Positions 1-11,653 of a stretch of 11,653 nt of DNA are shown here, piece after piece. Each line of letters begins with the position of its first letter. Within the stretch, counting starts at the first letter, position 1. This stretch comes from Candidatus Omnitrophota bacterium (GTDB taxonomy: Bacteria; Omnitrophota; Gorgyraeia; Gygaellales; Profunditerraquicolaceae). The translations under genes and the position numbers were made by a program. The notes beneath the pieces are model-generated. The model did no database searches, was not told where the DNA came from, and worked only from the letters and a program-made list of their open reading frames with translations. The DNA lies in NCBI GenBank assembly GCA_018825725.1, contig JAHKBC010000285.1, positions 1 to 11,653 of the forward strand, written 5' to 3'.

Positions 1-3000
1 AAGACATTGCCTTTAACCCCGTCAATAACAGTATCGCTTTTCTTCTTGCGGATGAACAACCAAATCCCTATTGGAGACAATTCTTTATCGTTGAATTGGA
101 TTCAAAAAAACAGGTAAGAATAGTCGTAGTCCATGGAAAAGAGGCATACCGTAGGCCCGGCAGGCACGGCAGGGCTTTCGATATTGATTCTAAAGGGAAT
201 TACTATGTTTTAGGAGACAGAAACGGTAACGAGGCCGAGATTTATGTTTTTAACCAAATTGGCAATTTAATCTTCACACAAGAAAGGCTTGATAAGAAAT
301 TTATTAACGGAGGTATTGCCATAGAGAGAGGTATCGTTACGTTAAAAAAACACGATGTTGACTACAAAGGGCAAGTTCCTCCTGATATGAAGAAGAAAAT
401 TATTCGGCAAATGGAGATAGTATATTCAACGGTTAAGCCCGCCGCCTCGCCGGTGGAAGGACGAGAAAAAGAAAGAGAAGAAGAAAAAATAGCTGGGCAA
501 TCTCAGACATTAAAGATAAGCAGTAGTTCAACTATTTTATCTTCCAAAGAAAATTGCGACATAGGAGGACTGGATGTTCGCCCGGCAGAATGTAGAAGTT
601 GGGACGATGAGGTAAAAGAGTTATTAGCGCAGCGAGATGTGCGGGTTAGAGAATATCGTGAAGTGATACAAACACTCGGCACAGAATTATTTAAGAGGAG
701 TATCGGAAGATTTAATTTATTTCCTATTATTGATACAATTAAGATTATTTTTGCTGATACAGAAAGTGACGCTTTACATATACTTGTCTATTTTAGCGAA
801 GAGATGCAAGCACAATATCCTCAGATAGTAAGCAAGCTAGGTAAGGTGGTAGGTTGGGTAGATGTTGCTTTGGTTGCAAATATAAAGCAAGGGCCTTGTT
901 TAATTATAGCTGAAGTGCAGCCGGCAAATTCATATTGGTATCTTTCAGCTAAGGAAAAAAGAATTATAAAAGATTGGCATAAAGCACTTTTTCATCATTT
1001 TGAAGAGATAAAGCATCGAGTTGGCATAAGGGAGATTCTAAAAGTAAGCAATATTCAGTTGAAGGCACAACCCGAGATCCAAAATGAAATACGGAGATTG
1101 ATAAAAGATAAAGGAAAGACTTCTTTGCCGGGCAGGCTCGATGAATTTTATGGTAGGCCATCTGCCCTCTATCAGCTGCAGGAGAGGGAAATTTTACTCT
1201 GGACTAATGGATGTACGTTGAAAGCACACTTTTGGTGCATAGCAGAGAGAAATGGGGACGTTTCTATTTTAACCAGGCCCCGCCCCCCCTCCAGGTCGCC
1301 GGTGGCCCGCTCCAGCTCGCCGTTGGGTTTTATCAGTCGGGCTCTGGGTTATGGGCCGTGGGCAAAAGAAGGTATTCGTAAGATTCAGGGTTCGGATGCC
1401 CACTCTGCCCGCAGCCCGGCAGTGACAGGGAAGGGGATTAGAAAGGTAATCAATAAATTAACAGCGGCATTGCCGCTGTTTTTTATTTGGTTGTTTGTTA
1501 GTGTCTTTCCTGCATTTGCCGATACAACATTTGTTTTTCAATTTGAAAACGACTGTTTTATGAAAAGAGATGCCAATTATTCAAATGGATTGAAGGTTGG
1601 CCTGCTTAGTTCTTACCTGCCGGATTTACCCGGGAATTCATTAGGATACAATCTGCTAAGAAAGATTATGCCTGAAGAGGATGCTTCTCGGCCTCGGCTT
1701 AAAGGATATAAGGAATTTTCCCTTGGCCAAAACATATATACGCCTGATAACGGCAAAGAATTCCTTATCGTTGAAGGAGAGCATCCTTACGCTGGAATAA
1801 GCTATTTAGAGTGGGCCTGGCACATCATTCCGGATAACTCAAGGCAACATTCTTTGGTCCTTGACCTGGGATTAGTCGGCCCTTATTCGTTTGCCGAGCA
1901 GACACAGAAAATCGCGCACGCGGTGCTAGGAGATAATCGTCATAACGGATGGGATAATCAGATGGTTACAGAGCCCCTGGCTTTGATCAGCTACGGCTAC
2001 AAACAGAGGGCATGGGATTGGAATTTGAGGGGCGATGGAGCTGGTTATGGTTCTGATTTAATTTTGCATGGTGGGATCGGGCTGGGTAATTTCCGGACTT
2101 ACGCGAACGCGGGAGGGGAATTACGTTTTGGATTGAATCTGGCAAACGACTTCGGGACGCTTCTTAACCGGCCCGGGAGAGGGGCGTTGGGAATAGCTCC
2201 GCATAGCGCAGATTCTCGATACCCATCGGTTTATGGTTTTGCGGGCGTAGACCTTCAGGCCGTTTTTTACGACATAACCTTGGACGGCGGGCTTATCAGC
2301 AGAAGCCCTTACACAGTAGAAAGAAAACCCCTGGTTTTAAATCTGATAGCTGGCGTGGCAATAAAATTTAAATCCTTTGAGGTAGTCTTTGCCGGGATTC
2401 GCCAGACAGAGAGGTTCACGGGCCAGGATAAGCCGCATCAATATGGCTCTCTTACCATTGTCTTTCCTTTAGGCAGGGCACCGGGTTCCCCCTCCAGCTC
2501 GCCGCTGGATGTGTTCCGTTCCTCCGCCACAGTACGTGGTGGATCCGACACGCTTTGTGTCGGAAGCTCACCGGTGAATGGCGAGACGCCTCGGGAAGCA
2601 TTAACTAGTATTGATGAGCGAAAGTTTGGCAAATCGCATAAAGAGGCACTCTTGGTATTTTTTGATGAAGTAATGAATAAAGACGGGATTTTTAGCGGCT
2701 TTGATGATGATGAGATTTTTAAGATGGCCAATAGTATATTCCTTCAAACAGCGGTAAAGAGTGCGTACATCATCGGATTAAAAGGCGCTTATGGGCTAAT
2801 TAAATCTCCGCGCAACAAGAGGCTGTTTATGGCTGAGCGCATTGCTATTCATTTGTATGACCAGGGGAGTAAAAACAACAATATTCCGTATTTAGAGCTG
2901 GCGCGCTTTGGCTTTGAACGCATTATGGCTCAGTTGGCAGACGATAAAACAAGCGCTGGAGAATTAGGATTAGTATATTCCAGGCAAATCGGCATAAATG

Positions 3001-6000
3001 ATTATTTAACAGGCGCGCTGCCTTTGTTACACTATTTCTACTACAGGATTTTTTATATGCTCGCAGATACAGTATATGCTTTGGGGCTGTCGCTGTGGGA
3101 AAAAGGGCAGTCAAAAGCATTCTTTATTCTGGAGAAGGCAATTGCTTATTATGGCAGTTTTATCGAGTCGTTACTTTTAGAATCTTTGGCAGATGAGGCT
3201 AGGGTAGCAGAGGGCGTGGAATATATCAACAAAAAGATAGCCAATTCGTATCTTAATCTGTTGTTTTTAAGTATGCAGGCGGGAGAACGGATATCGCATC
3301 ACAGGGTAAAAGTAAATGCCCTGCTCGCGTCGTTTAAAGTAAAAGACATTATCTATTATAACCTTAAAGCCTATCTTAATTTTTCGATACTTATCGAGGC
3401 GCTCCGTGCGGCAGAGAAGTATTTTGTGGATGGCAATACAGACGCCCTAAAACGAAATTACCTTTTTTCCAAGGTTCCAAAAACTACTCTCCGGGATTTA
3501 GGAAGAGAGACATCCCAATATCTTTTCTTTTTCAGGAAGGGGTTAGAAATATCCAGCGTCAAAGAAAACATTGTTGAAGAGGCAGCCGAAGCATTCAGGA
3601 ATATATTTACGCATTATGGCCTGGATTTTACGAAACCAGCGGGTAAGGTTTTGCCGGAAGAGATACTGCCGACTATTTCTCATTATTTCGTTCTAAACGT
3701 GCTCAGGGGTACATATGAAGGGCTGTTTGACCCTATTCGTTTTGTCACCAGGAGTTTTGGCAGTGAATCAGTCATCGGAGAGCTGTTGGCCGAATATATC
3801 ACCCTTTTTATAGAACTTGATAAAAACGAAGTTCAGGGCTTATTTAAGAATATATTGAACGCGATAGAGAAAGAAAATAACCACGCGGAAGCAAAGAAGG
3901 CATTTCTAAACTTTATAAGCACGCGGTTTGCCTTATTGCCGCCTATGGCAGATATTATTAAGGAACTATTTATTTTGTCCGGCAGGGACAGAATGTTGCT
4001 TGAAACAATTTTTCAGCTTGGCGGAAGCGTCGCGTTTGATGACTGGGCTGATATAAGGGCTGAAGATGATAAAATCATTGAAGAGTATCTCCGCAGTATA
4101 AAAAAACAGGCAGCTACCAAGAGGCAATTTCAAAAGAGAGCCGCCGCATGGGCTGCTGTGCAACGTTTGGTTTTAAGCCGTGATCCTGATTGCCTTGATG
4201 GCGTCTTTGAAAAAATAGCAGCGGGCCAGCTCAAAGATTTACACAAACCCACCGCGGAATTTATCAAGGAAACAGTCTTAAGCCGCACCATAAGAGAACT
4301 GCGGATTTTAATGGATTTAAAAGAATGGCTTAATTTTTATGAGGGAGAAAATTTGGAGAGATTTCGCTCAGCATTCGGTGAAGAATGGATAGAGGGAGCA
4401 ATAGAAAATCTATTAAAAGAAGGAATCATTGTTGCCAGGGGCGTGCTATTTGCTATAGAGAAGAATGCCGGAGTATTTACCATCAGTGATGATTTTAACA
4501 TAGAATACGTAGACAATGAATTGGTTACTGCGCTTGTTAGAATCGTCAGGACAACAGAAAACATCACTGTTTTCGTCATAGATACCCGGGCGTTGACGGA
4601 TATAAAGGCAAAAGAAATAGAGGATGATCTAGATAAACTGGAGAGATTTATCTTTGGTGGCTCTGCGCAACACAGTTCAAGCTGTGTCGGACCGCTGCAT
4701 GGCCAAGTATCCAAGCCGTGGTTGGAGAAAAGCATCGGGGTTGGCTTTAATTTTACTATTTCCAGCTCCGCTATTTTTGAAGAAAGTATTGAAAAGTTGT
4801 TGAAAGAGTTTGAGGTTTTTAGCCCGGCTCGCCTAAGCGCGCCGCCTGCTTCTCTTGGCAATATTTTAAGAGCGTATGAACAGCTTCTCATGCGCATGGC
4901 TAGTTATGAAATGCAGGAAGACCTTTTGACAGCTGAACAACTTTCAGACAAGCTCAACCATATATTTGAAATTATTCCAGCGTTAGTTACAAGCGGCTCG
5001 GATTTTTCTATTATAACTAAAGTATTTCACCGCTGCATTGGGGAGTATCCGGCGGCCATGACGCTTTTTAAACACAACTTGACTTTAATTGACCTTTCCC
5101 GTGATAATTTTTTTAAGGAGTGCGCCGAGGAGATAGGATTTGTTTTGTCTTTACTGGATTCATTCAGGAAAGAAGAACAGTCCGCGCTCCTGAAGAATAA
5201 GCCGCTATTTGCCTATAATTATTGGGCAGCTTGCCTTATTTTTATCGAGATGCAGATTTGCGGGGAAATTTTTCTGTGTAGAGACATAACCGAATCCTAT
5301 CCTTTTTATCAGCGGCAAATTATCATCTTAGATGCGCTTCTTGGCGCTTATCTTCCGTTTGTTCCCTATGTTCTTTTGTCCCGGGCTTATAATTGCCGTG
5401 GGTTCTGCCATCTTGTTTCTATCGAGCTGTATTGGCGTGGCCTGACTACTTTTATGGAATCTCTTTACACTCACAGACGCGCAGAAGCGGATTTAAAAAA
5501 TGCCTTAAGAATTAATCCTCTTAATTCAGATGCGCGGAAAAATCTGGTATATCTTCTGCGGGAGTCAAAAAAAATAATATTTTTTAATGCCGTGGAGAAG
5601 GATAAATTTTATTCTCTTGAAGAACTCTTGGTTTTAGCCGATAACAGGGTGGGCAGGAAACATCGGCCTTTAATCCGCGGTTTAATTAACCAATTAACCA
5701 GCCTGGGCTTAGCAGAGGTTGCAAATACAGGAGAGCGAATACGGATTAAGTCAATAAAGCTTTCAGCGTCTTATCCTCTAACCGCCAGTTCTTCAGTTAG
5801 CAGTAACTTTGAAGAATATTTTATCTCCCAGGTTCGGGAAGGTTTTTCAGCCGGAATAGAACCGGTTCTAAGCAGCGTTAAAGACGTCAAGGTTTATAAA
5901 ATAGGAGATTCCAGAATGCCGCGTAAATTAAGCGGCATAAATCCGGCAACCATAATTTCCATGTTGGGAGCTTGTGCGCCACATGTCAGGCATTATTTAA

Positions 6001-9000
6001 GCGACAACGAACTTAGTTTTAATTCGGTAAGGGCCGGAGACGGGACTATGATTCTATTGGTAAGGATGATGGAAGAATTAGCCGAAAGGTATCTTGATAA
6101 AAGATTTGTGGTCAAGATAAGTGAAGACCAGAGGTATGGCGTGCCAGCATCATTGCTAAAGGGGAGGGTTTTTGGCAATGGCCCAGAGGCCGTCGAGGTT
6201 GGATTTGATGTTTTAGAAGGTTCAGTTAACGTCAGCCGTAAAAACCGCGGGCCGCTATTGATAGTATTTCTGTTAGGCGAAGAATACAGCATGAAGGGGT
6301 GGCCGGACAAATCCTTATATTATGAAAAGATAATTTTAGCTCGGGCCAACAAGAAAGTTGACTTAAACCTGGATGACAATCCGGAAACATTTCTTAAAAA
6401 ATGCGAGTATGGTTTTGAGATTAACCGAAAAGAGCTGAAAATCGGCATGTTATTTAGGCTCCGGCACAGGGATTATATCAGCCATTTAATCAAGCTGGGT
6501 ATAAGGGTAGAAACCAAAGATTTATCAGAGATGGAAAGACAGGTCATCCAGCAGGGTATTTATGAAAATGGTAATCTTATTTTAATCAATTCCGGAGAAT
6601 TGGATCTTTTAACCGCCCTTCTTTCAGGCAGGCTCCACGCGATAGTGGGGTTTGGCCGGCCGACTGAAGGTGAAATAATGATGCATACTGCAAGAAAGAA
6701 AGGATTGCAGATGCGCGGAAGGTTTGCAAGTTATGCATCTTTGAAGGATGGGGTAGGGCGCTCTATTGACATTAAAAGAGACAGGCAAAGGTTTATTGCG
6801 GAAGAGGAGCGTATTCTCAGGGATTTTAATTTAATAAGGCCGGGATTAGAGAAAAATGGGCAAATGCCCTGGGATAAGATTTGGACACAAGAAGATGGCT
6901 CAAAGAATTTATCCCTCACCGGCATATACATAAATGATTGCCGGTGGGTAGAAGAATTAAAAGGCCCTGGTTTTAGCCAGGTAACAGAAGATGAAACGGT
7001 TAATGGTTTTTATATAGGCCCGGCTGATGAAACCGTTGTGTTCGGCATTGGCTATACAACACAGATTCCTCTGATCAAAGAAGCGATAGAAAGAAAAGGA
7101 GGTGCTGGGCGAAGGGAGAAGCTTTTATTAAAGCTAGCCGGTTATTATTCAAGATTGGGGCTTTACAAAAAATCAATTGAAGCAATAGAACAAATAAATA
7201 AAAAAGAAAGAGGGGATAAGTATCAAAATGTTTACCTGAATATTCTGGCGCATCAGGCGTTAGTTAAATCTTCAAAAGAAACAGCTGTTGGCAAAGCTAT
7301 TAAGTTTTTGCAAAAGATTACTTTCCTAAAAGACTATCCTAAATCCAGGCGCCTTTTAAGAAGGTTGAGGCATAATATTGCAGATGAATTCAGGAAGAAA
7401 AGCCAGGCTAGTAATGACGCGGTAATTTTAGAAACCGCGCAAGGTTATTACAGAAAAGCCCTGAGGCTTTTTGATCCTTGCAGCTTATTAGATGAGCAGG
7501 ATAATTTGGAGTTTCAATTAGCCCAATTGCATATTAGAGAGGTAAAAACTGAAATAAAAATACTTTTAGCTCTTAAGAGTGGCAAAGGCCCGCCTCAAGG
7601 ATGCTATTTTGAGTTGGGAAGTATACGTAAGGAAATATCCGAGCTTTATACCCAGCGCGGTTTTGATTTAAAGGGGATGGATTATTTTCTCAGGATGCAA
7701 AAAGCCTGGAAAAAGGTCTATGCCTTTGGCGGGGAAGCGCCGCTGCGGATTAAATTTAATACAGCCAAGGCTTATTTTACAAGGCGGGTTTATAAATTGG
7801 CAGCAAGGGAGTATTTGGGCTTAATTAATCCTAAAGAGGCATTTAATCTATCATTTCCTTCGGATAGTGAATTTAGCCCTGAAGAACGCAACCGTTGTTT
7901 TGAGGATTTTCGCCAAGGGATATACAGGATATTTTTTAAATATGCGGTCAGGGGGTTTTTAATCTCATTTTGGCTGGACCAGAATATTACAGATAAAAAA
8001 GTCCAAGAGAGCATTTTTGCGCTAGAAGAGGACATAAGTACGTTAGATTATTTGTTGGGTAAAGAAAGCGCTGAAGTTTCTTTTGCCGGCGGCGTATTAA
8101 GGGTCCGGGCTGAAAGGCAAGAATTTAAGCTTGACCTTAGCCGCGCTATCAGGAAACTGACCTCCAGCTCTCCGGCGGATTTAGTTAATAGTCAATTGTT
8201 AACTGTGAACTACAGCAGCGCCTCCCCGATAGATAAAATTAACCAGGAAAGAGTGTTCGAGCTAAATTATAATTTAAATATAATAGGGAATTTTAGGCAT
8301 AGGTTGTTTAACTTCCAGAAATTCTCTGCTAAAGCGCGCGCGCTTCTGGATTATAGCGGAGATTCTCGCGAGCTTGTTCATTGGTCAACCTTGCGCTTAT
8401 TAGCCAGGATGGCCAAGGCGGTTACGGATGGAAATAAGCATAAAAGCAGCGTGTTTGGTTTATCAGGGGAGATTTCCGGAATCTACGAAGTGGTTATCAA
8501 ACGAGGAAGCGCCCTGGAGCAAATAAACCTTGGGGCCCTTGGCGATGTAAATCAAATTGTGCATATGGGAAACAGGATAAAAGAGTTTGACGCGGTAAGC
8601 AGCAATACTGTTTTTGAATTTAAATTTTGTCTGACTTTACGCAAACTTTTTCAACAGGTTATTGGTATTGATTCCGCTAAACTACCGCATCTTAAAGTAC
8701 TAACCGAAGACGCCAAATTCTCCAATATTCGCAATCTCGTTTATTTCGGAGAACATTGCGAGCTCAAACTTATACAGGCGATTTCGGCATTTATCAAAGC
8801 CAGGCCAGAATTTTCTTCTTGCTTCAGCATCAAAAATAATGGTTTTGTTTTTAAATTGGGGCTTAGTGAAGAAAAATACTTTTTGGTATTCGCTTTAGAA
8901 AAATATTTTTCTTGTGATTTGCGAAAGATCAAAGAGATGGTTAATTTGCTAGATAAAAAGATTGCTCGTTTACCACCCGGGGGTAAATTTGACGTGATTA

Positions 9001-11653
9001 TTGCCGCAAGTAATGCTCCGGAAAAAGAACTAGCAAGGTTAAGAAAGCTACCTCGTTCCAGCTCGCCGCTGGGTAATAATGGTATGTTGTCTTGCGGGCC
9101 ATTTTTGGGTTATGTTAATGAAAAAATAGCGATTTTTTCTAAAGAGTCAGCCGGGCGAAAAACAGAAAAGAGTTTAGAGAAAGCGCTTAGCGGTTATGGA
9201 TACAAGAGATGGTTACGTGAAATTTTGAAGGTGCGCTCCGGCAGCCGTAAACTAAAAACAAACTTTCAACTTATCCGTGAGGATAAAGAAATATTTTTTA
9301 CTAGAGCAAAAGATATTTTTGTGATCGATATCGATTATGCAGAAAGGTTAGCAGATCTAAATTTGTCCCGAGGCGGAATTAAAATTATCTGGGCGGATAT
9401 GCTTAAGGATATGCCGCGCAGCCTTGAGTCTAGCTGGTTAGCGGGTTTTCAGAGATGGACTGTAGGTTGTTTATTGGCGCTGCAGGAGTTGGATCTAAGA
9501 GGAAAATACGTGGTTGATGCCGGATGCGGCAACGCGGTATTGGGGTTAAGCGCCTTGCGCCTGGGGGCAGAGAAAGTTTACCTCCTTGATAGCGCTAAGG
9601 AATTAAAGCCGCGCATTGAAACCGCGTTGTCGAGAAATGGCTTTAACAGCTCAAGGGCAGATTTTTCTTATTTTGGCAAGAGATTCGAGGATTTAGAACA
9701 TCCTGGGAGATTGGGAGAGGTTGACGTATTGGCTGCAAATTTAGAAAACCTGGGGCTATCTTGTTCTTTTGAAAATGCGAAAGATCCGCTTAGATATTTA
9801 ATAGACTTTTTTAATCCGGGGGTAATTATTGTTGCCGGAGATGACCGCGCAGAAAGATTGTGGGAGTTTTTAAAGAGAACGGGTTATCGATATATAATTA
9901 TAAATACCTACAGCCGCATAAAAGCATATATGCATCACTACGAGCGCTTTTATTGGTTAGCAAATGAAAACATTGCTACTGTGTTGGAAAGAAAATCCAG
10001 CTCTCCGGTATATCAACAGCCATATGCATTTCCTTATATCTGTCTCTGGCTGGATACAATTCAGCGCCTGGCAGGAGAGGGTAATGGCATGGCTATGATT
10101 TATGAAGCTCCCGGGGATATTTTCTACAGGGCAATCTGGAAGCATATATTCAGGGATGATATAGAGGTTTATTTATGGGGAATTCAACGGCAGGTGCAGG
10201 TTATAATCCCGGAGTTAAGAAGAGTTAGTAATAGCGAGTTAATTGGCTCTCTTTTTGGGATATGCGTATTAAATTTTTCGTCGGCATTTAGCAATTATTG
10301 CGGACCGGTACATGATGCCTTGGCCCAATCTTTGATGGGACTGGGAAATCGCGTGCTTCAGAAACGCATTAAGCCTCGCGAAATTCCGGGGTTGAAGAAT
10401 GCCCTTGAGCCGGAAATTGAATATAATGATTTGCCCATGGATCATGTTTTTCTTTTTGATTTATCTTTTGAAAGGCCTTTAGTTATAGATTTTCTCGCCC
10501 CGGCATTTATAGGAAAAATTAAGGGAACGAATGAACTGCTCAAGATGTCAGATGAGTTGGTAAGCAGCAAAGAATTTCAGGGTTTGCCGAAGTCAATGAC
10601 AGCCGATCAAGGCGCTATTTTTTCGCAACCTTCAGGCGGCGCCTCACCGGTGAGTATCAAACTTTCGAATATCTTATTTTTCGACCGCCATAGAAATCGA
10701 TTGGTTGAACATACAACAGGTATTTATGCCGGAAACGATTGGGTTGAGGGAGTCAGGGATGAATTACTCAAATGGCTTGAATTTTCAAGGGACGGTTATG
10801 CTATTGATAAAGCCAAGGATAACGCCACCAATACTGCAGTTACTATCCCCCGGATTCGAACTTATGCCCAGCAAATTATTAAAAAGGAAATAACCAAAAA
10901 AGAAAGATTTATTATTTATAGGAATATGCAAGGAGACCACATTGCTCTGGTTAGATTTGTGTTAAAGCCTAAGAGCATTCTTGCAGCAGGGTTCATTGTT
11001 TCACCGCAGGCTCGCTGGGAGAAGAAATATCTTAACGAGACTCTTGTTATGGGGGCGATAAGCTCCCTGATTGAAGCCAGCAAGGAATATTTTGGTTCCG
11101 TAAGAGTTTATGCAAATCCCTATAATCAGAAAATATTTGATTATCTTCTCTCGTTTCAGCCGATGAGACCAAAGAAAGGGCTTAATGAGGCAATCATTTT
11201 GTTTGATGATATAGCGGCTAAACGATATTTGGAGTATGTAAAACAGAAAATAGCTGAGTTGGCAGAAATTGGGTGCTCCAGCTCTGGCGAGGGAAGGGAA
11301 TCCGCCGCCTCGCCGGCGGGATCAAACCAATCTTCTCTTACTATTATACCTCTTTTTGAACCCAGGTCATATTCACAACGCAAAATCAAAGGCTGGAATT
11401 ATTTTCACTCAGGATCAATTCTCGGATCACCTCCTTGGTTAACGTTTCAATATACACCATTGAGGCGGTTTGTTATTGCTCATCTACGAGCAATACACAA
11501 AGCTTTAGAAGGCAGTGACGGCAAAACAGCCAGATTGCTTGATGTGGGTTCAGGCATGGGTATTCTAACGAGGGAGATTGCAAAAGAATTGCCAGATTCT
11601 TACAAAGTCTTTTCGTTCGATATCGCTCATATACTGCTTGTTTCCTATCTTAG
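1..11653 (+). CDS. Giant multidomain protein, internal fragment (both ends outside window)
   Basis: A single open frame starting at base 3 runs through the whole window: 3,883 complete codons without TAA, TAG or TGA, then two spare bases. In moderate-GC DNA with many A/T-rich codons this cannot be chance. No start codon or ribosome binding site can be assigned because the protein is already under way at base 3. The chain joins an LpxR-like barrel with its own signal peptide, a GlpX-like phosphatase, two methyltransferase folds, a possible cysteine-protease or transglutaminase fold, a GNAT-like fold and long helical repeats, separated by Ser-Ser-Ser-Pro type islands. Giant predicted proteins with such linkers are a feature I associate with Omnitrophota; this is recognition, not proof. 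The job of the whole protein is unknown. The ORF is directly seen; the domain names are inferred from motifs and are listed separately. Confidence 0.96.
3..407 (+). other. Beta-propeller-like module, C-terminal part (res 1-135)
   Basis: The first ~135 residues are beta-rich and carry a repeat typical of NHL/SMP-30-like propeller blades: 'FDIDSKGNYYVLGDRNG' followed by 'EIYVFNQIGNLI' (about residues 60-92), the pattern in which a blade reads as D-x-x-G-N-x-Y-V followed by an I-x-V-F-D-x-x-G-like strand. A second weak blade may start at residue 1 (N-P-x-N-N-S-I-A-F). Such modules usually bind partners or act as scaffolds and are common in extracytoplasmic proteins. The N-terminal blades must lie upstream of the window. 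It ends in a charged stretch just before the first A-A-S-P-V island. Fold assignment is from one clear blade only. Confidence 0.45.
438..458 (+). repeat. Ser-Pro island 1 (A-A-S-P-V), palindromic DNA
   Basis: Residues 147-151 read A-A-S-P-V. The DNA at 442-456 folds as ccgcc / loop tcgcc / ggtgg, five pairs with one G-T wobble. It separates the propeller-like part from a charged linker. Same frame and same loop as the copies at 1312, 2493, 9058 and 11305. Confidence 0.65.
465..1275 (+). other. Unassigned alpha/beta module with E-V-Q motif (res 155-425)
   Basis: After a Ser-rich, charged linker, residues ~200-420 form a mixed alpha/beta module. Its best block is 'LIIAEVQPANSYWYLS' (E304, Q306), followed by an amphipathic helix containing D324-W325-H326-K327 and then 'HRVGIREILKV'. 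The order strand with E-x-Q, W-containing helix, G-x-x-x-I/V-x-x strand resembles a small family found in phage and mobile-element polyproteins that carries an 'EIQSD...W' signature, but the similarity is faint. I do not assign a function. It is followed by a Pro/Arg/Ser-rich low-complexity linker (about 1273-1330) that contains two Ser-Pro islands. Confidence 0.3.
1283..1289 (+). other. C7 homopolymer in coding sequence
   Basis: Seven consecutive C residues lie inside a Pro/Arg-rich linker just upstream of the internal signal peptide and LpxR-like barrel. The frame is open through the tract as given. Gain of one C would reach a TAA at 1379-1381 and loss of one C a TGA at 1423-1425, so slippage in either direction would end the protein before the LpxR-like module. 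Confidence 0.6.
1290..1328 (+). repeat. Ser-Pro island 2, double copy (S-R-S-P-V / S-S-S-P-L)
   Basis: Two copies lie in tandem: residues 430-434 S-R-S-P-V and 437-441 S-S-S-P-L. The second copy (1312-1326) folds as ccagc / tcgcc / gttgg, five pairs including one G-T. The first keeps the tcgcc centre and the outer three pairs only. A diverged S-P-A-V follows at residues 471-474. Together they form the linker in front of the signal peptide. Confidence 0.7.
1446..1520 (+). other. Internal signal peptide with AFA|D cleavage site (res 482-506)
   Basis: A classical type I signal peptide lies about 480 residues inside the visible chain. It has a basic n-region (R480, K481, K485), a hydrophobic core from about residue 486 to 503 including 'LPLFFIWLFVSVFP', and A-F-A followed by D507, a textbook signal peptidase I site between 506 and 507. 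The predicted mature start coincides with the first strand of the LpxR-like barrel, as in free-standing LpxR precursors. This suggests that a complete precursor gene was fused into the giant ORF with its leader still attached. In mid-chain the segment would act as a transmembrane helix or as a processing point. Confidence 0.8.
1461..1484 (+). other. Terminator-like hairpin plus T-run inside the ORF
   Basis: The 19 bases at 1461-1479 are a perfect inverted repeat (acagcggca / t / tgccgctgt). As RNA this could fold into seven GC-rich pairs with a five-base loop, and it runs straight into six T residues (1479-1484). That is the form of a rho-independent terminator, yet it lies within the coding sequence for the signal peptide core. 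It may be chance, an attenuation site, or a relic of an old intergenic junction. Confidence 0.5.
1521..2477 (+). other. LpxR-family (DUF2219) outer-membrane lipid A 3'-O-deacylase barrel (res 507-825)
   Basis: LpxR is a calcium-dependent outer-membrane beta-barrel enzyme that removes the 3'-acyloxyacyl chain of lipid A. The family blocks appear in order: 'FENDCF' (E515-N516-D517), 'YSNG' (526-529, usually Y-T-N-G), 'GQNIYTP' (575-581), 'EHPYAG' (593-598, usually D-R-P-Y-A-G), 'GPYSFAEQTQKIAH' (626-639) and G649-W650-D-N-Q653. H639 matches the catalytic His position and N516/D517 the conserved ENDxF pair. The span of about 319 residues fits the family size, and amphipathic strands continue to 'GSLTIVFPL' near 2465. 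The E-H substitution for D-R near the active site is odd and may change substrate choice. The family call is strong; activity inside a giant chain is uncertain. Confidence 0.88.
2487..2582 (+). repeat. Mosaic of in-frame palindromes with Ser-Pro islands 3 and 4
   Basis: This 96-base linker directly follows the barrel. It contains, in order: S-S-S-P-L (res 831-835) encoded by a perfect six-pair hairpin tccagc / tcgcc / gctgga at 2493-2509; two adjacent 21-base hairpins at 2523-2564 (listed separately); and S-S-P-V (855-858) encoded around the perfect ten-base palindrome tcaccggtga at 2568-2577. All units keep the frame open. The stretch has little predicted structure and looks like an accumulation of small palindromic insertions between two modules. 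Confidence 0.75.
2523..2564 (+). repeat. Two adjacent 21-base hairpins (8-base arms, 5-base loops)
   Basis: Unit A, 2523-2543, is tccgccac / agtac / gtggtgga, eight pairs with one C-to-T change (G-T wobble). Unit B, 2544-2564, is tccgacac / gcttt / gtgtcgga, eight perfect pairs. The units abut without a spacer, have the same length and the same outer bases (tcc...gga), but different stems and loops. Each adds exactly seven residues: S-A-T-V-R-G-G and S-D-T-L-C-V-G. Because the loops and inner stem differ while pairing is kept, the fold rather than the sequence seems to be shared. Confidence 0.85.
4662..4690 (+). repeat. Palindromic insert related to the 2544-2564 hairpin
   Basis: The bases acacag (4670-4675) and ctgtgt (4682-4687) are a perfect six-base inverted repeat around ttcaag. 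The right arm runs on as tgtgtcgga, identical to the right arm of the hairpin at 2544-2564. The encoded peptide is A-Q-H-S-S-S-C-V-G, again Ser-rich and ending C-V-G as in the other copy. It interrupts an otherwise structured segment and is best read as a diverged member of the same element family. Confidence 0.5.
5355..5567 (+). other. TPR-like helices (res 1785-1855)
   Basis: The segment 'RAEADLKNALRINPLNSD' (from residue 1826) followed by 'ARKNLVYLLRES' is a good tetratricopeptide unit: the A-x-x-D-L-x-x-A-L-x-x-N-P pattern with helix B ending before Asn-Pro, then the next helix A. Helices just upstream ('YVLLSRAYNCRG', 'ELYWRGLTTFMESLY') fit earlier, weaker repeats. TPR arrays bind peptides or other proteins. 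Only the last unit is clear; the number of repeats cannot be set by eye. Confidence 0.6.
5598..5752 (+). other. Winged-helix-like segment (res 1866-1917)
   Basis: Residues 1866-1917 follow the order of a winged helix: 'KFYSLEELLVLADNRVG' (helices 1-2, with the S-L-E-E-L entry often seen at this position), 'RPLIRGLINQLTSLGLAEV' (recognition-type helix ending L-x-x-L-G-L-x-x-V) and then 'ANTGERIRI', which would be the wing. Such folds bind DNA or mediate protein contacts. It lies between the TPR-like helices and the GlpX-like domain. The call is by pattern only. Confidence 0.4.
5925..7091 (+). other. GlpX-like class II fructose-1,6-bisphosphatase domain (res 1975-2363)
   Basis: GlpX hydrolyses fructose-1,6-bisphosphate (in some lineages also sedoheptulose-1,7-bisphosphate) using divalent metal. 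Matching by eye to E. coli GlpX gives consistent spacing. D2013 falls on D33 (with a four-residue insertion before the next ligand), E2041 on E57, D2069 on D85 and E2072 on E88 (D-V-L-E-G-S for D-P-I-E-G-T; the E57-D85 spacing of 28 is identical). D2120-L-N-L matches the D-L-N-L strand after the metal site. 'PTEGE' (E2222) matches the P-E-G loop, with M-x-G-R 17 residues further on in both. T2306-G-I matches A-T-G-I. The K29 position is not conserved. The match covers the full family length. It may be active, altered in substrate, or structural. A metabolic enzyme fold in a chain with an outer-membrane barrel is unexpected. Confidence 0.78.
7101..8130 (+). other. TPR-like helical array (res 2367-2710)
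   Basis: This segment follows the GlpX-like domain. Paired amphipathic helices have TPR character: 'LAGYYSRLGLYKKSIEAIEQ' (L-x-x-Y-Y-x-x-L-G-x-Y-x-x-A-I pattern), 'ILETAQGYYRKALRLFDP', 'FNTAKAYFTRRVYKLAAREY', each about 34-40 residues apart or in multiples. It probably provides a curved binding surface or spacer between the GlpX-like domain and the next modules. The last part, near residues 2660-2715, turns into a short helical hairpin plus beta strands ('EVSFAGGVLRVRAE') and ends at a Ser-Pro island. No enzyme motif is visible. Confidence 0.6.
8160..8233 (+). repeat. Ser-Pro islands 5 and 6 flanking an AT-rich quasi-palindrome
   Basis: S-S-S-P-A (res 2721-2725) and S-S-A-S-P-I (2738-2743) bracket an AT-rich insert. 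The insert has tagtt at 8182-8186 and its complement aacta at 8208-8212, with the palindrome caattg (8193-8198) near the centre. Its peptide, 'LVNSQLLTVNY', has no obvious structural role. Composition changes abruptly from GC-rich island to AT-rich insert and back, which suggests one small element inserted into or next to another. The frame stays open throughout. Confidence 0.6.
8235..9047 (+). other. Possible PD-(D/E)XK-like module (res 2745-3015)
   Basis: After a helical part, residues ~2815-2900 give a mixed fold with E2861-F-D2863 in one strand, a turn, and then V-F-E2872-F-K2874, followed by a helix ('LTLRKLFQQVIG'). Asp followed about nine residues later by E-x-K is the core of the PD-(D/E)XK nuclease superfamily, and strand-turn-strand-helix is the right order. 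The motif is short and common by chance, so this is only a candidate. Residues ~2905-3015 form a second alpha/beta stretch ending in 'FDVIIAASNAP', just before a Ser-Pro island. No wider family is recognised. Confidence 0.3.
9051..9076 (+). repeat. Ser-Pro island 7 (S-S-S-P-L), perfect five-pair hairpin
   Basis: Residues 3019-3023 read S-S-S-P-L. Bases 9058-9072 are ccagc / tcgcc / gctgg, identical over 15 bases to the core of the copy at 2494-2508 about 6.5 kb upstream. It lies at the boundary in front of the methyltransferase module. Confidence 0.75.
9075..9990 (+). other. PrmA-like class I SAM methyltransferase (res 3025-3330)
   Basis: A Rossmann-type methyltransferase core follows an N-terminal alpha/beta part. 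Motif I is V3170-V-D-A-G-C-G3176-N, the SAM-binding glycine loop. The second strand 'GAEKVYLLDSAK' ends in the Asp that normally holds the SAM ribose. Motif IV is D3241-V-L-A-A-N3246-L-E-N, close to the A-N-I-L loop of ribosomal protein L11 methyltransferase (PrmA) and other protein methyltransferases. 'YLIDFFNPGVIIVAGD' matches the later Pro-Gly strand, followed by the helix 'AERLWEFLKRTGY'. The order and spacing of motifs are normal, so SAM binding is likely. The substrate is unknown; likeness to PrmA suggests protein or small-molecule substrates rather than nucleic acid. It is flanked by Ser-Pro islands on both sides, as a self-contained module. Confidence 0.8.
9993..10013 (+). repeat. Ser-Pro island 8 (S-S-S-P-V), diverged
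   Basis: Residues 3332-3336 read S-S-S-P-V. The DNA keeps tccagctctccgg but the right arm no longer pairs, so this copy preserves the peptide and not the hairpin. It marks the boundary between the methyltransferase and the Cys-His-Asp module. Confidence 0.6.
10011..10622 (+). other. Candidate papain/transglutaminase-fold module with Cys-His-Asp (res 3337-3540)
   Basis: The block 'NYCGPVHDALAQSL' puts C3433 at the start of a helix. About 48 residues later comes 'DHVFLFDL' with H3481 at the start of a strand, and then 'LVIDF' with D3496 in the next strand. Cys at a helix N-terminus, His-strand, Asp-strand is the order of the catalytic triad in transglutaminase-like and papain-like enzymes (peptidases, transglutaminases, amidases). 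The segment upstream (res 3337-3425) has 'YLWGIQRQVQVIIP' strands of unknown type. If active, it could cut or crosslink proteins, possibly this chain itself; that is inference. The module sits between two Ser-Pro islands. Only the triad spacing supports the call. Confidence 0.45.
10635..10655 (+). repeat. Ser-Pro island 9 (G-A-S-P-V) with 10-base palindrome
   Basis: Residues 3546-3550 read G-A-S-P-V. The bases tcaccggtga at 10644-10653 are a perfect palindrome, identical to 2568-2577 about 8 kb upstream and in the same codon phase. It separates the Cys-His-Asp module from the GNAT-like module. Confidence 0.65.
10653..11265 (+). other. GNAT-like acetyltransferase-fold module (res 3551-3755)
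   Basis: Residues ~3640-3745 follow the GNAT order. The strands 'DHIALVRFVL' and 'ILAAGFIVSP' lead into 'QARWEKKYLNETLVMGAISS', which replaces the usual R/Q-x-x-G-x-G/A acetyl-CoA loop. Then come a long helix ('SLIEASKEYFG'), the strand 'SVRVYANPYN', a short helix 'QKIFDYLLSF' and the last strand 'EAIILFDD'. The P-loop-like glycines of motif A are missing or replaced, so acetyl-CoA binding is doubtful and this may be a degenerate GNAT fold. The N-terminal ~90 residues are unassigned. Nothing in the sequence tells the substrate. Confidence 0.4.
11277..11322 (+). repeat. Ser-Pro island 10 (S-S-S-G-E / A-A-S-P-A)
   Basis: A diverged S-S-S-G-E (res 3759-3763) is followed by A-A-S-P-A (3768-3772). 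Bases 11305-11319 form ccgcc / tcgcc / ggcgg, five perfect GC pairs, with the same loop as four other copies. It lies in front of the last methyltransferase. Confidence 0.65.
11323..11653 (+). other. Second SAM methyltransferase, N-terminal part, cut by window end
   Basis: Residues ~3775-3883 begin with strands and a basic helix ('PLRRFVIAHLRAIHKAL') and then give motif I: L3845-L-D3847-V-G-S-G-M-G3853, with the helix 'ILTREIAKELP' and the second strand 'KVFSFDIA', whose Asp would bind the SAM ribose. This is a textbook class I methyltransferase start. It differs clearly from the PrmA-like module (G-S-G-M-G against G-C-G-N). The rest, including the substrate-defining parts, lies beyond the window, so no subfamily can be named. 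The open frame continues past the last base. Confidence 0.75.

Follow-up and report, generated by a model that had tools for sequence, protein, structure and literature searches.

A short S/A-S-P peptide linker at module boundaries of Omnitrophota long and giant genes and its probable role as an in-frame seam

The short S/A-S-P sites dispersed along the contig analysed here are probably a conserved linker peptide between protein modules, serving as an in-frame seam for the gain and loss of modules in giant Omnitrophota genes. The peptide is strongly enriched over expectation, sits at the seams between modules, is constrained in its residues rather than in its codons, and exactly bounds two modules that differ between two relatives. 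An earlier note on this DNA had read the sites as a mobile or recombinational linker with covarying palindromic stems. Signs of a recombinational role were indeed found, namely the two modules gained or lost from linker to linker, and the palindromic covariation was not.

The window and its host group

The window is a whole contig of 11653 nt (C71 of its own genome, G000). Its single open reading frame (ORF) apparently belongs to an Omnitrophota giant gene of which the contig carries a fragment. It continues past both ends of this 11.65-kb contig, giant ORFs being those of more than 20 kb. Relatives from the same family have modules homologous to those of the window in open frames of 57,099, 57,756 and 70,450 aa. 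The Pfam matches in the window are an LpxR outer-membrane barrel, an FBPase-like stretch and a PrmA-like methyltransferase. Positions 2601-11600 were matched in 16 of 98 genomes, the window's own included, and the first 870 residues, which include LpxR, in one of the 98, which is its own. The coordinates of the linkers and modules are collected in Table 1.

The two named protein relatives of the window are from Omnitrophota. Sixteen of the 17 named contigs carrying its conserved module A1 are titled Omnitrophota or Omnitrophica and one is a Syntrophus MAG, which supports membership of the window in Omnitrophota. The exception (L147, DYRD01000019.1) has its A1 module in a MAG titled Syntrophus aciditrophicus, perhaps a misassigned bin.

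Giant ORFs of more than 20 kb occur in 77 of 116 Velamenicoccia genomes according to the available portion of PMC10066038. In the available portions of PMC10066038 and PMC12057145 the Omnitrophota giant ORFs are characterized by few annotated domains, poor conservation and predicted transmembrane helices, and these portions describe no linkers, module seams or linker-to-linker gain and loss. The Omnitrophota literature searched, as far as its accessible text goes and with the West-Roberts 2023 giant-gene preprint outside its scope, likewise holds no description of such linkers.

Table 1. Linkers, modules and other features of the window
Position	Strand	Feature	Remark
3..11651	+	Single ORF without stop, 3,883 aa	Open at both contig ends
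441..455	+	Linker AASPV (gccgcctcgccggtg)	
1290..1304	+	Near-copy S-R-S-P-V, 1 base off the canonical linker	Forms a tandem pair with the copy 21 bp downstream
1311..1325	+	Linker SSSPL	Upstream seam of LpxR module
1431..1520	+	Internal signal-peptide-like segment KGIRKVINKLTAALPLFFIWLFVSVFPAFA, immediately preceding the LpxR barrel	Called by heuristic, no trained predictor
1482..2462	+	LpxR module (PF09982, E 7e-75)	Flanked by linkers 1311 and 2493
2493..2507	+	Linker SSSPL	Downstream seam of LpxR module; exact 15-mer in common with 9058
2562..2576	+	Linker GSSPV	
8163..8177	+	Linker SSSPA	
8217..8231	+	Linker SASPI	Upstream seam of conserved module A1
8262..9032	+	Conserved module A1	In other Omnitrophota long ORFs, with or without edge linkers
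9057..9071	+	Linker SSSPL	Downstream seam of conserved module A1
9996..10010	+	Linker SSSPV	
10638..10652	+	Linker GASPV	Upstream seam of module in common with the 57,099-aa ORF of G029
11304..11318	+	Linker AASPA	Perfect 5-bp stem; downstream seam of the module shared with G029

Abundance of the linker

The ten S/A-S-P sites counted in the earlier note are confirmed. Ten sites of the window fit [SAGT][SA]SP[VLIA], all of them in the one reading frame, against 0.27 expected from composition for a slightly looser pattern. We scanned the window's own genome with a degenerate DNA pattern allowing up to two mismatches and obtained 25 matches, against 4 for the reversed pattern. The canonical-looking matches are in six contigs, five of which are open end to end while the remaining one (C117) consists of two long ORFs. 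Weak matches are present in four more contigs. The motif-rich relatives gave 45, 49, 17 and 17 matches of the DNA pattern in G029, G075, G009 and G027, respectively, with none for the control in any of them. Among the 98 related genomes many are not motif-rich.

The 57,099-aa ORF of G029, which is open at the contig start, encodes 123 strict motifs, and its last 43,765 aa hold 105 motifs against 2.9 expected (slightly looser pattern). CofD, PfkB, radical SAM, M48, HD and histidine-kinase-like domains are found along this ORF (G029:C6 1-171297; L075, L087 and L067-L073). Long G029 ORFs below giant size also carry motifs, e.g. 7 in 1,798 aa and 3 in 1,115 aa. Other sampled DNA of G029, with about 46,900 aa of ORFs, has 5 motifs against at most 1.7 expected, a mild excess made of other codon forms.

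Linkers and giant genes can occur independently of each other, as seen from long ORFs of G029, G033, G010 and P0002 that have no excess of the motif. There is no motif in the 24,378-aa ORF of G029, in a 20,000-aa piece of G010 or in the 5,424-aa relative P0002, and there is one in a 39,766-aa piece of G033, where 0.99 is expected. We hence rejected the linker as a general feature of giant genes, the giants of G029, G033 and G010 having no motifs beyond chance. The G033 piece is the part read of a 70,450-aa open frame (G033:C2). The linker-free ORF of G029 (G029:C6 262908-336041) showed no Pfam domain at E 1e-4 in 10,000 aa.

Linkers and module seams

That the linkers lie at module boundaries within coding DNA, as the earlier note had suggested, agrees well with the domain data. 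We compared the motifs with 46 Pfam domains (60,519 aa), which were merged by hand and some of which are below the Pfam cut-offs; only one of them contains a motif, while 17.4 motifs would be expected inside. This lone motif is in a TIM match, near its start at a contig end. The distances to the two flanking linkers are 52 and 11 residues for LpxR, and 30 and 10 residues for the PfkB domain of G029. We also counted where homology ends, leaving out records superseded by longer ones: 176 of 426 distinct ends, which are not independent of each other, are within 20 aa of a motif, about four times the 10.7% for random positions. Since a homology search ends in any disordered linker, the end count alone is no proof of shuffling. 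Another count, with 751 alignments ending at a motif and 113 crossing one, includes a genome's records more than once and was left out of the evidence.

The module A1 was used to compare the same edges across relatives. Among the ORF pieces carrying it in the 17 named contigs, six use linkers and 11 have none anywhere; 9 of the 11 testable A1 edges in the six linker-using pieces have a linker within 30 aa. The boundaries of A1 are kept in relatives regardless of the presence of a linker. Its predicted structure (pLDDT 81) consists of helices followed by three strands and a helix, with the pattern EFDAVSSNTVFEFK (L138-L154), and we take pattern and predicted fold together to recall PD-(D/E)XK nucleases. 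A sequence search against solved structures gave no significant match, the best E being 0.05.

A strong intrinsic-terminator-like hairpin followed by a T-run (z -5.9) lies inside the ORF at window 1460-1480 (fold 1448-1492), downstream of linker 1311, and overlaps the start of the signal-like segment of LpxR. It is perhaps a former intergenic stretch that is now translated. Over the whole scan terminator-like sites were not above shuffles (11 vs 12.6).

Certain modules are similar to housekeeping enzymes. In the G072 ORF two folate-enzyme-like stretches, presumably FolD-like and FchA-like as judged from sequence, have no strict linker between them and match two adjacent separate genes in G069. 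The idea that core metabolism is encoded in giant ORFs only is unsupported, ordinary TPI genes being present in most relatives. The sole TPI-like match in the window's own genome, which is about 81% complete, lies in a long-ORF fragment (L029, G000:C63, 59-658) with a linker near its loop 3 region. Several relatives have extra, often partial, TPI/TIM copies in long ORFs.

Module gain and loss

Residues 4995-7671 of G099 and residues 1-3322 of G098 align in three collinear blocks with 72, 78 and 84% identity. At two points between the blocks G099 has a single linker and G098 an extra module, of 434 and 202 aa, respectively, whose ends coincide exactly with linkers. In each of these indels the linker present in G099 is similar to the right-hand one of the two in G098. 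No linker of hybrid sequence was found. Two modules of the giant ORF of G072 recur in G063 with 86% identity, on two separate contigs and with different neighbours, and the homology between G063 and G072 breaks off at linkers or at less strict copies, e.g. [TA]GSPL. The same module edge can have the linker in some relatives and not in others. Among the module edges compared, we found no insertion of a linker only between well-aligned flanks, the TIM case having no upstream part because of the contig end.

Peptide constraint and DNA form

We compared the constraint on the peptide between G099 (SURF_25) and G098 (STD1_201), the only collinear pair to hand. S-S-P is identical at 21 of 21 positions, covering five sites of G099 in seven placements, and of the 134 flank positions up to 12 residues from the linkers 61 are identical. 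The ratio dN/dS is about 0.13-0.29 in the aligned blocks. Serine codons are identical in 6 of 13 cases at five aligned linkers by hand count, as compared with 73 of 101 for all aligned serines. The conserved entity is the peptide and not its codons.

The codons of the linkers also have preferred forms. The third serine is TCG in 21 of 39 linkers in G000, 62 of 123 in G029, 50 of 71 in G075 and 28 of 35 in G009, against a background of 10-17%; the preference is weaker in G072 (12/33) and G027 (9/25), at 36%. ORFs under 800 aa in fetched contigs were left out of this count. The codon choices within a linker are linked and bimodal in G029, where 43 of 123 linkers are fully canonical against 18 expected and 12 are wholly non-canonical against 2.3 expected. 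Linkage was also observed in G075 (29 of 71 canonical vs 15) and G000 (15 of 39 vs 8.9), and is absent in G009 (9 of 35 vs 9.7 expected). The analyses of unit size, codon linkage and pairing used 395 of the 396 motifs, one motif being without full flanks.

The preferred form changes along the 57,099-aa ORF of G029. Among the 20 motifs of its first 8,500 residues, six have AGCCCC as their S-P codons; between 21,000 and 31,500 these codons are TCGCCG in 11 of 31, mostly after TCCAGC, and after 39,000 TCGCCG in 40 of 58, mostly after GCCGCC. The background use of serine and proline codons is nearly flat along this ORF, and neighbouring motifs have a codon identity of 0.47 against 0.23 expected. 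Because the linker forms shift by region over a flat background and linkage is seen in three of four genomes, we rejected codon preference alone as the source of the shared DNA form. The regional DNA forms within one gene therefore suggest that the linkers are copied as DNA too: short DNA copies of them seem to have been made and to have decayed afterwards at synonymous positions with the peptide kept.

Hairpins and covariation

The earlier note had named five of the sites as DNA hairpins around a TCGCC loop. All five do fold with 5-6 bp, but each goes only weakly beyond shuffled sequences (z -1.0 to -2.4). The central five pairs are fully Watson-Crick at 2493, 9057 and 11304 only, those at 441 and 1311 including a G-T pair. 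There is no excess of TCGCC as such in the window, with 20 occurrences on both strands against 21.3 expected.

Covariation of the stems, the other part of the proposal, did not hold up beyond the window. Kept stems predict that a left-arm AGC goes with a right-arm C and a left-arm GCC with a right-arm G. This can be tested in G000 and G029, G075 and G009 being without the needed variation, and in neither are the arms significantly associated in this way (G000: OR 1.75, p 0.45; G029: OR 0.37, p 0.96, if anything reversed). With G-T pairs included, all five pairs are formed in 7 of 39 linkers of G000 against 3.4 expected (fraction 0.02), in 7 of 132 of G029 against 6.1, in 0 of 71 of G075 and in 1 of 26 of G009. 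Pooled complete Watson-Crick stems are near chance, with 8 of 395 against 6.2 (fraction 0.26, shuffling), and stems with G-T allowed number 20 of 395 against 14.3 (fraction 0.056). The mean number of pairs is slightly raised, at 2.17 vs 2.05 with 0 of 1000 shuffles as high, which we tentatively ascribe to the co-occurrence of C-rich left and G-rich right codons in well-preserved copies. With the arms unassociated and complete stems near chance, hairpin pairing and covariation were rejected as a conserved feature. A conserved peptide with no excess of pairing is the outcome that the earlier note had itself set against its reading, although copying of the linkers at the DNA level can still be seen.

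Alternative explanations

Could the linker be a mobile or palindromic mini-element that sits in frame, comparable to the Rickettsia palindromic elements? Unrelated modules do carry near-identical short DNA copies of it, and the linker DNA forms a tandem 21-bp pair at window 1287-1328. We nevertheless consider such an element highly improbable. Beside the missing covariation of the arms, the conserved unit over 395 copies is about six codons with no larger element around it, and the DNA form that encodes the same peptide changes from one region of a gene to another. Of the 161 near-exact copies in the motif-rich ORFs that were scanned, 158 keep the frame, in agreement with the constant reading phase proposed before, and the reverse strand has none. 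A sample of 140 kb from the rest of the G029 DNA, which is part of that genome, contains no exact copy and two copies with one mismatch, and the region of the second giant gene of G029 has no exact copy either. A mobile palindromic element was thus rejected on frame, strand and location, and the likeness to the Rickettsia elements that had been proposed finds no basis in a six-codon unit with neither covarying arms nor a reverse-strand copy.

Two other explanations were considered. The giant product might be cut at or near the linkers, so that modules would be freed with N-terminal signals of their own, which we regard as unlikely but not far-fetched. At 5-50 aa downstream of a linker the start of a hydrophobic segment is seen in 33 cases, the rotated controls giving 18.6 (1/500 as high), and there is no enrichment upstream of linkers (13 vs 20.4). 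In 30 modules with a single segment it lies 17 times in the first third, 9 times in the middle and 4 times in the last third. Some linkers are followed by signal-peptide-like starts, as with LpxR in the window and with GASPI-RVMAAGIALITYLHLVLFTPVFA-AEQ, AASSP is followed by a twin-arginine and lipobox-like segment in the G029 ORF, and S-S-P is invariant while its neighbours drift. These starts were called by hydrophobicity heuristics in some of the modules. On the other hand, modules captured from former genes would keep signal starts as relics, sister giant ORFs have no such site, and the Tat/lipobox-like case is the only one in the set. An excess of Met or of ribosome-binding sites after linkers, which could bear on either reading, is absent. 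Alternatively, the sites could be ordinary flexible Ser/Ala/Pro linkers kept for their physical properties only, with indels falling there because they are tolerated. Their position between domains, the slightly hydrophilic and low-Met surroundings and the peptide constraint without codon constraint in G098 and G099 would suit this, but mere flexibility requires neither the exact S-S-P (21/21) nor that one DNA form recurs tens of times contrary to codon usage, and we consider it improbable.

In the G029:C6 ORF, signal-peptide-like segments lie directly after linkers at residues ~3235-3260 and 31458-31490, and one of the two is that with the twin-arginine and lipobox pattern. We looked for relics of start codons and ribosome-binding sites after linkers and rejected them, as none is in excess: Met accounts for 1.4-1.6% in the bins that span 10-59 residues downstream of linkers, the background being 1.7%, and a ribosome-binding site accompanies 3 of 121 ATGs near linkers against 36 of 2032 elsewhere. 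The signal-like starts and the terminator-like hairpin fit captured genes. A combined role, in which the phase-locked linker of 12-18 nt would be both a recombination seam for the uptake and loss of whole genes in frame and a cleavage signal freeing over 100 proteins from a product of up to tens of thousands of residues, seems to us quite unlikely, and it is just as doubtful that many proteins freed in this way would carry their own N-terminal targeting signal.

Proposed mechanism and significance

If the linker is a conserved peptide and in-frame seam, as we think probable, the long and giant Omnitrophota genes would be strings of modules, many of which resemble stand-alone enzymes or secreted proteins. 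As the reading phase of the linker is constant from seam to seam, whole modules could be gained, lost or moved from linker to linker without a frameshift. We speculate that the shared 12-18 nt of DNA may act as a seam for recombination or through microhomology and that the linker DNA may be passed on to new seams, which would explain why there is one DNA form per region.

Our analysis bears on the origin of 100-200 kb bacterial genes and on the function of their products. A linker that marks seams would let giant ORFs be split into modules by script and would make the exchange of modules between species measurable. It would also let proteomics ask directly whether the product is a single giant protein or a set of small ones, and suggests a bacterial route to in-frame module shuffling without introns.

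Comparison with known systems

Rickettsia palindromic elements are roughly 100-150 bp long and are found both inside genes and between them. The linkers share with them the occurrence of short repeated DNA within reading frames and in the same frame. They differ in having no conserved pairing and a far shorter unit, and copies are absent from the reverse strand of the ORFs scanned, as are exact copies from the 140-kb sample. As in viral polyproteins with internal signal sequences, some modules have internal signal-like starts after a conserved short peptide; this likeness is one of sequence, cleavage being putative here. Q-linkers and Pro/Thr-rich linkers are, like the present ones, short hydrophilic peptides between independently folding domains. 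Unlike them, the linker described here has a five-residue consensus reused 123 times in one ORF of G029, and its codons are often shared, in regional DNA families. Exon shuffling with symmetric-phase exons is similar in that a boundary of constant phase lets modules move without frameshift, and the Omnitrophota linkers are unlike it in that they are bacterial, no introns are seen and the boundary is itself a translated peptide.
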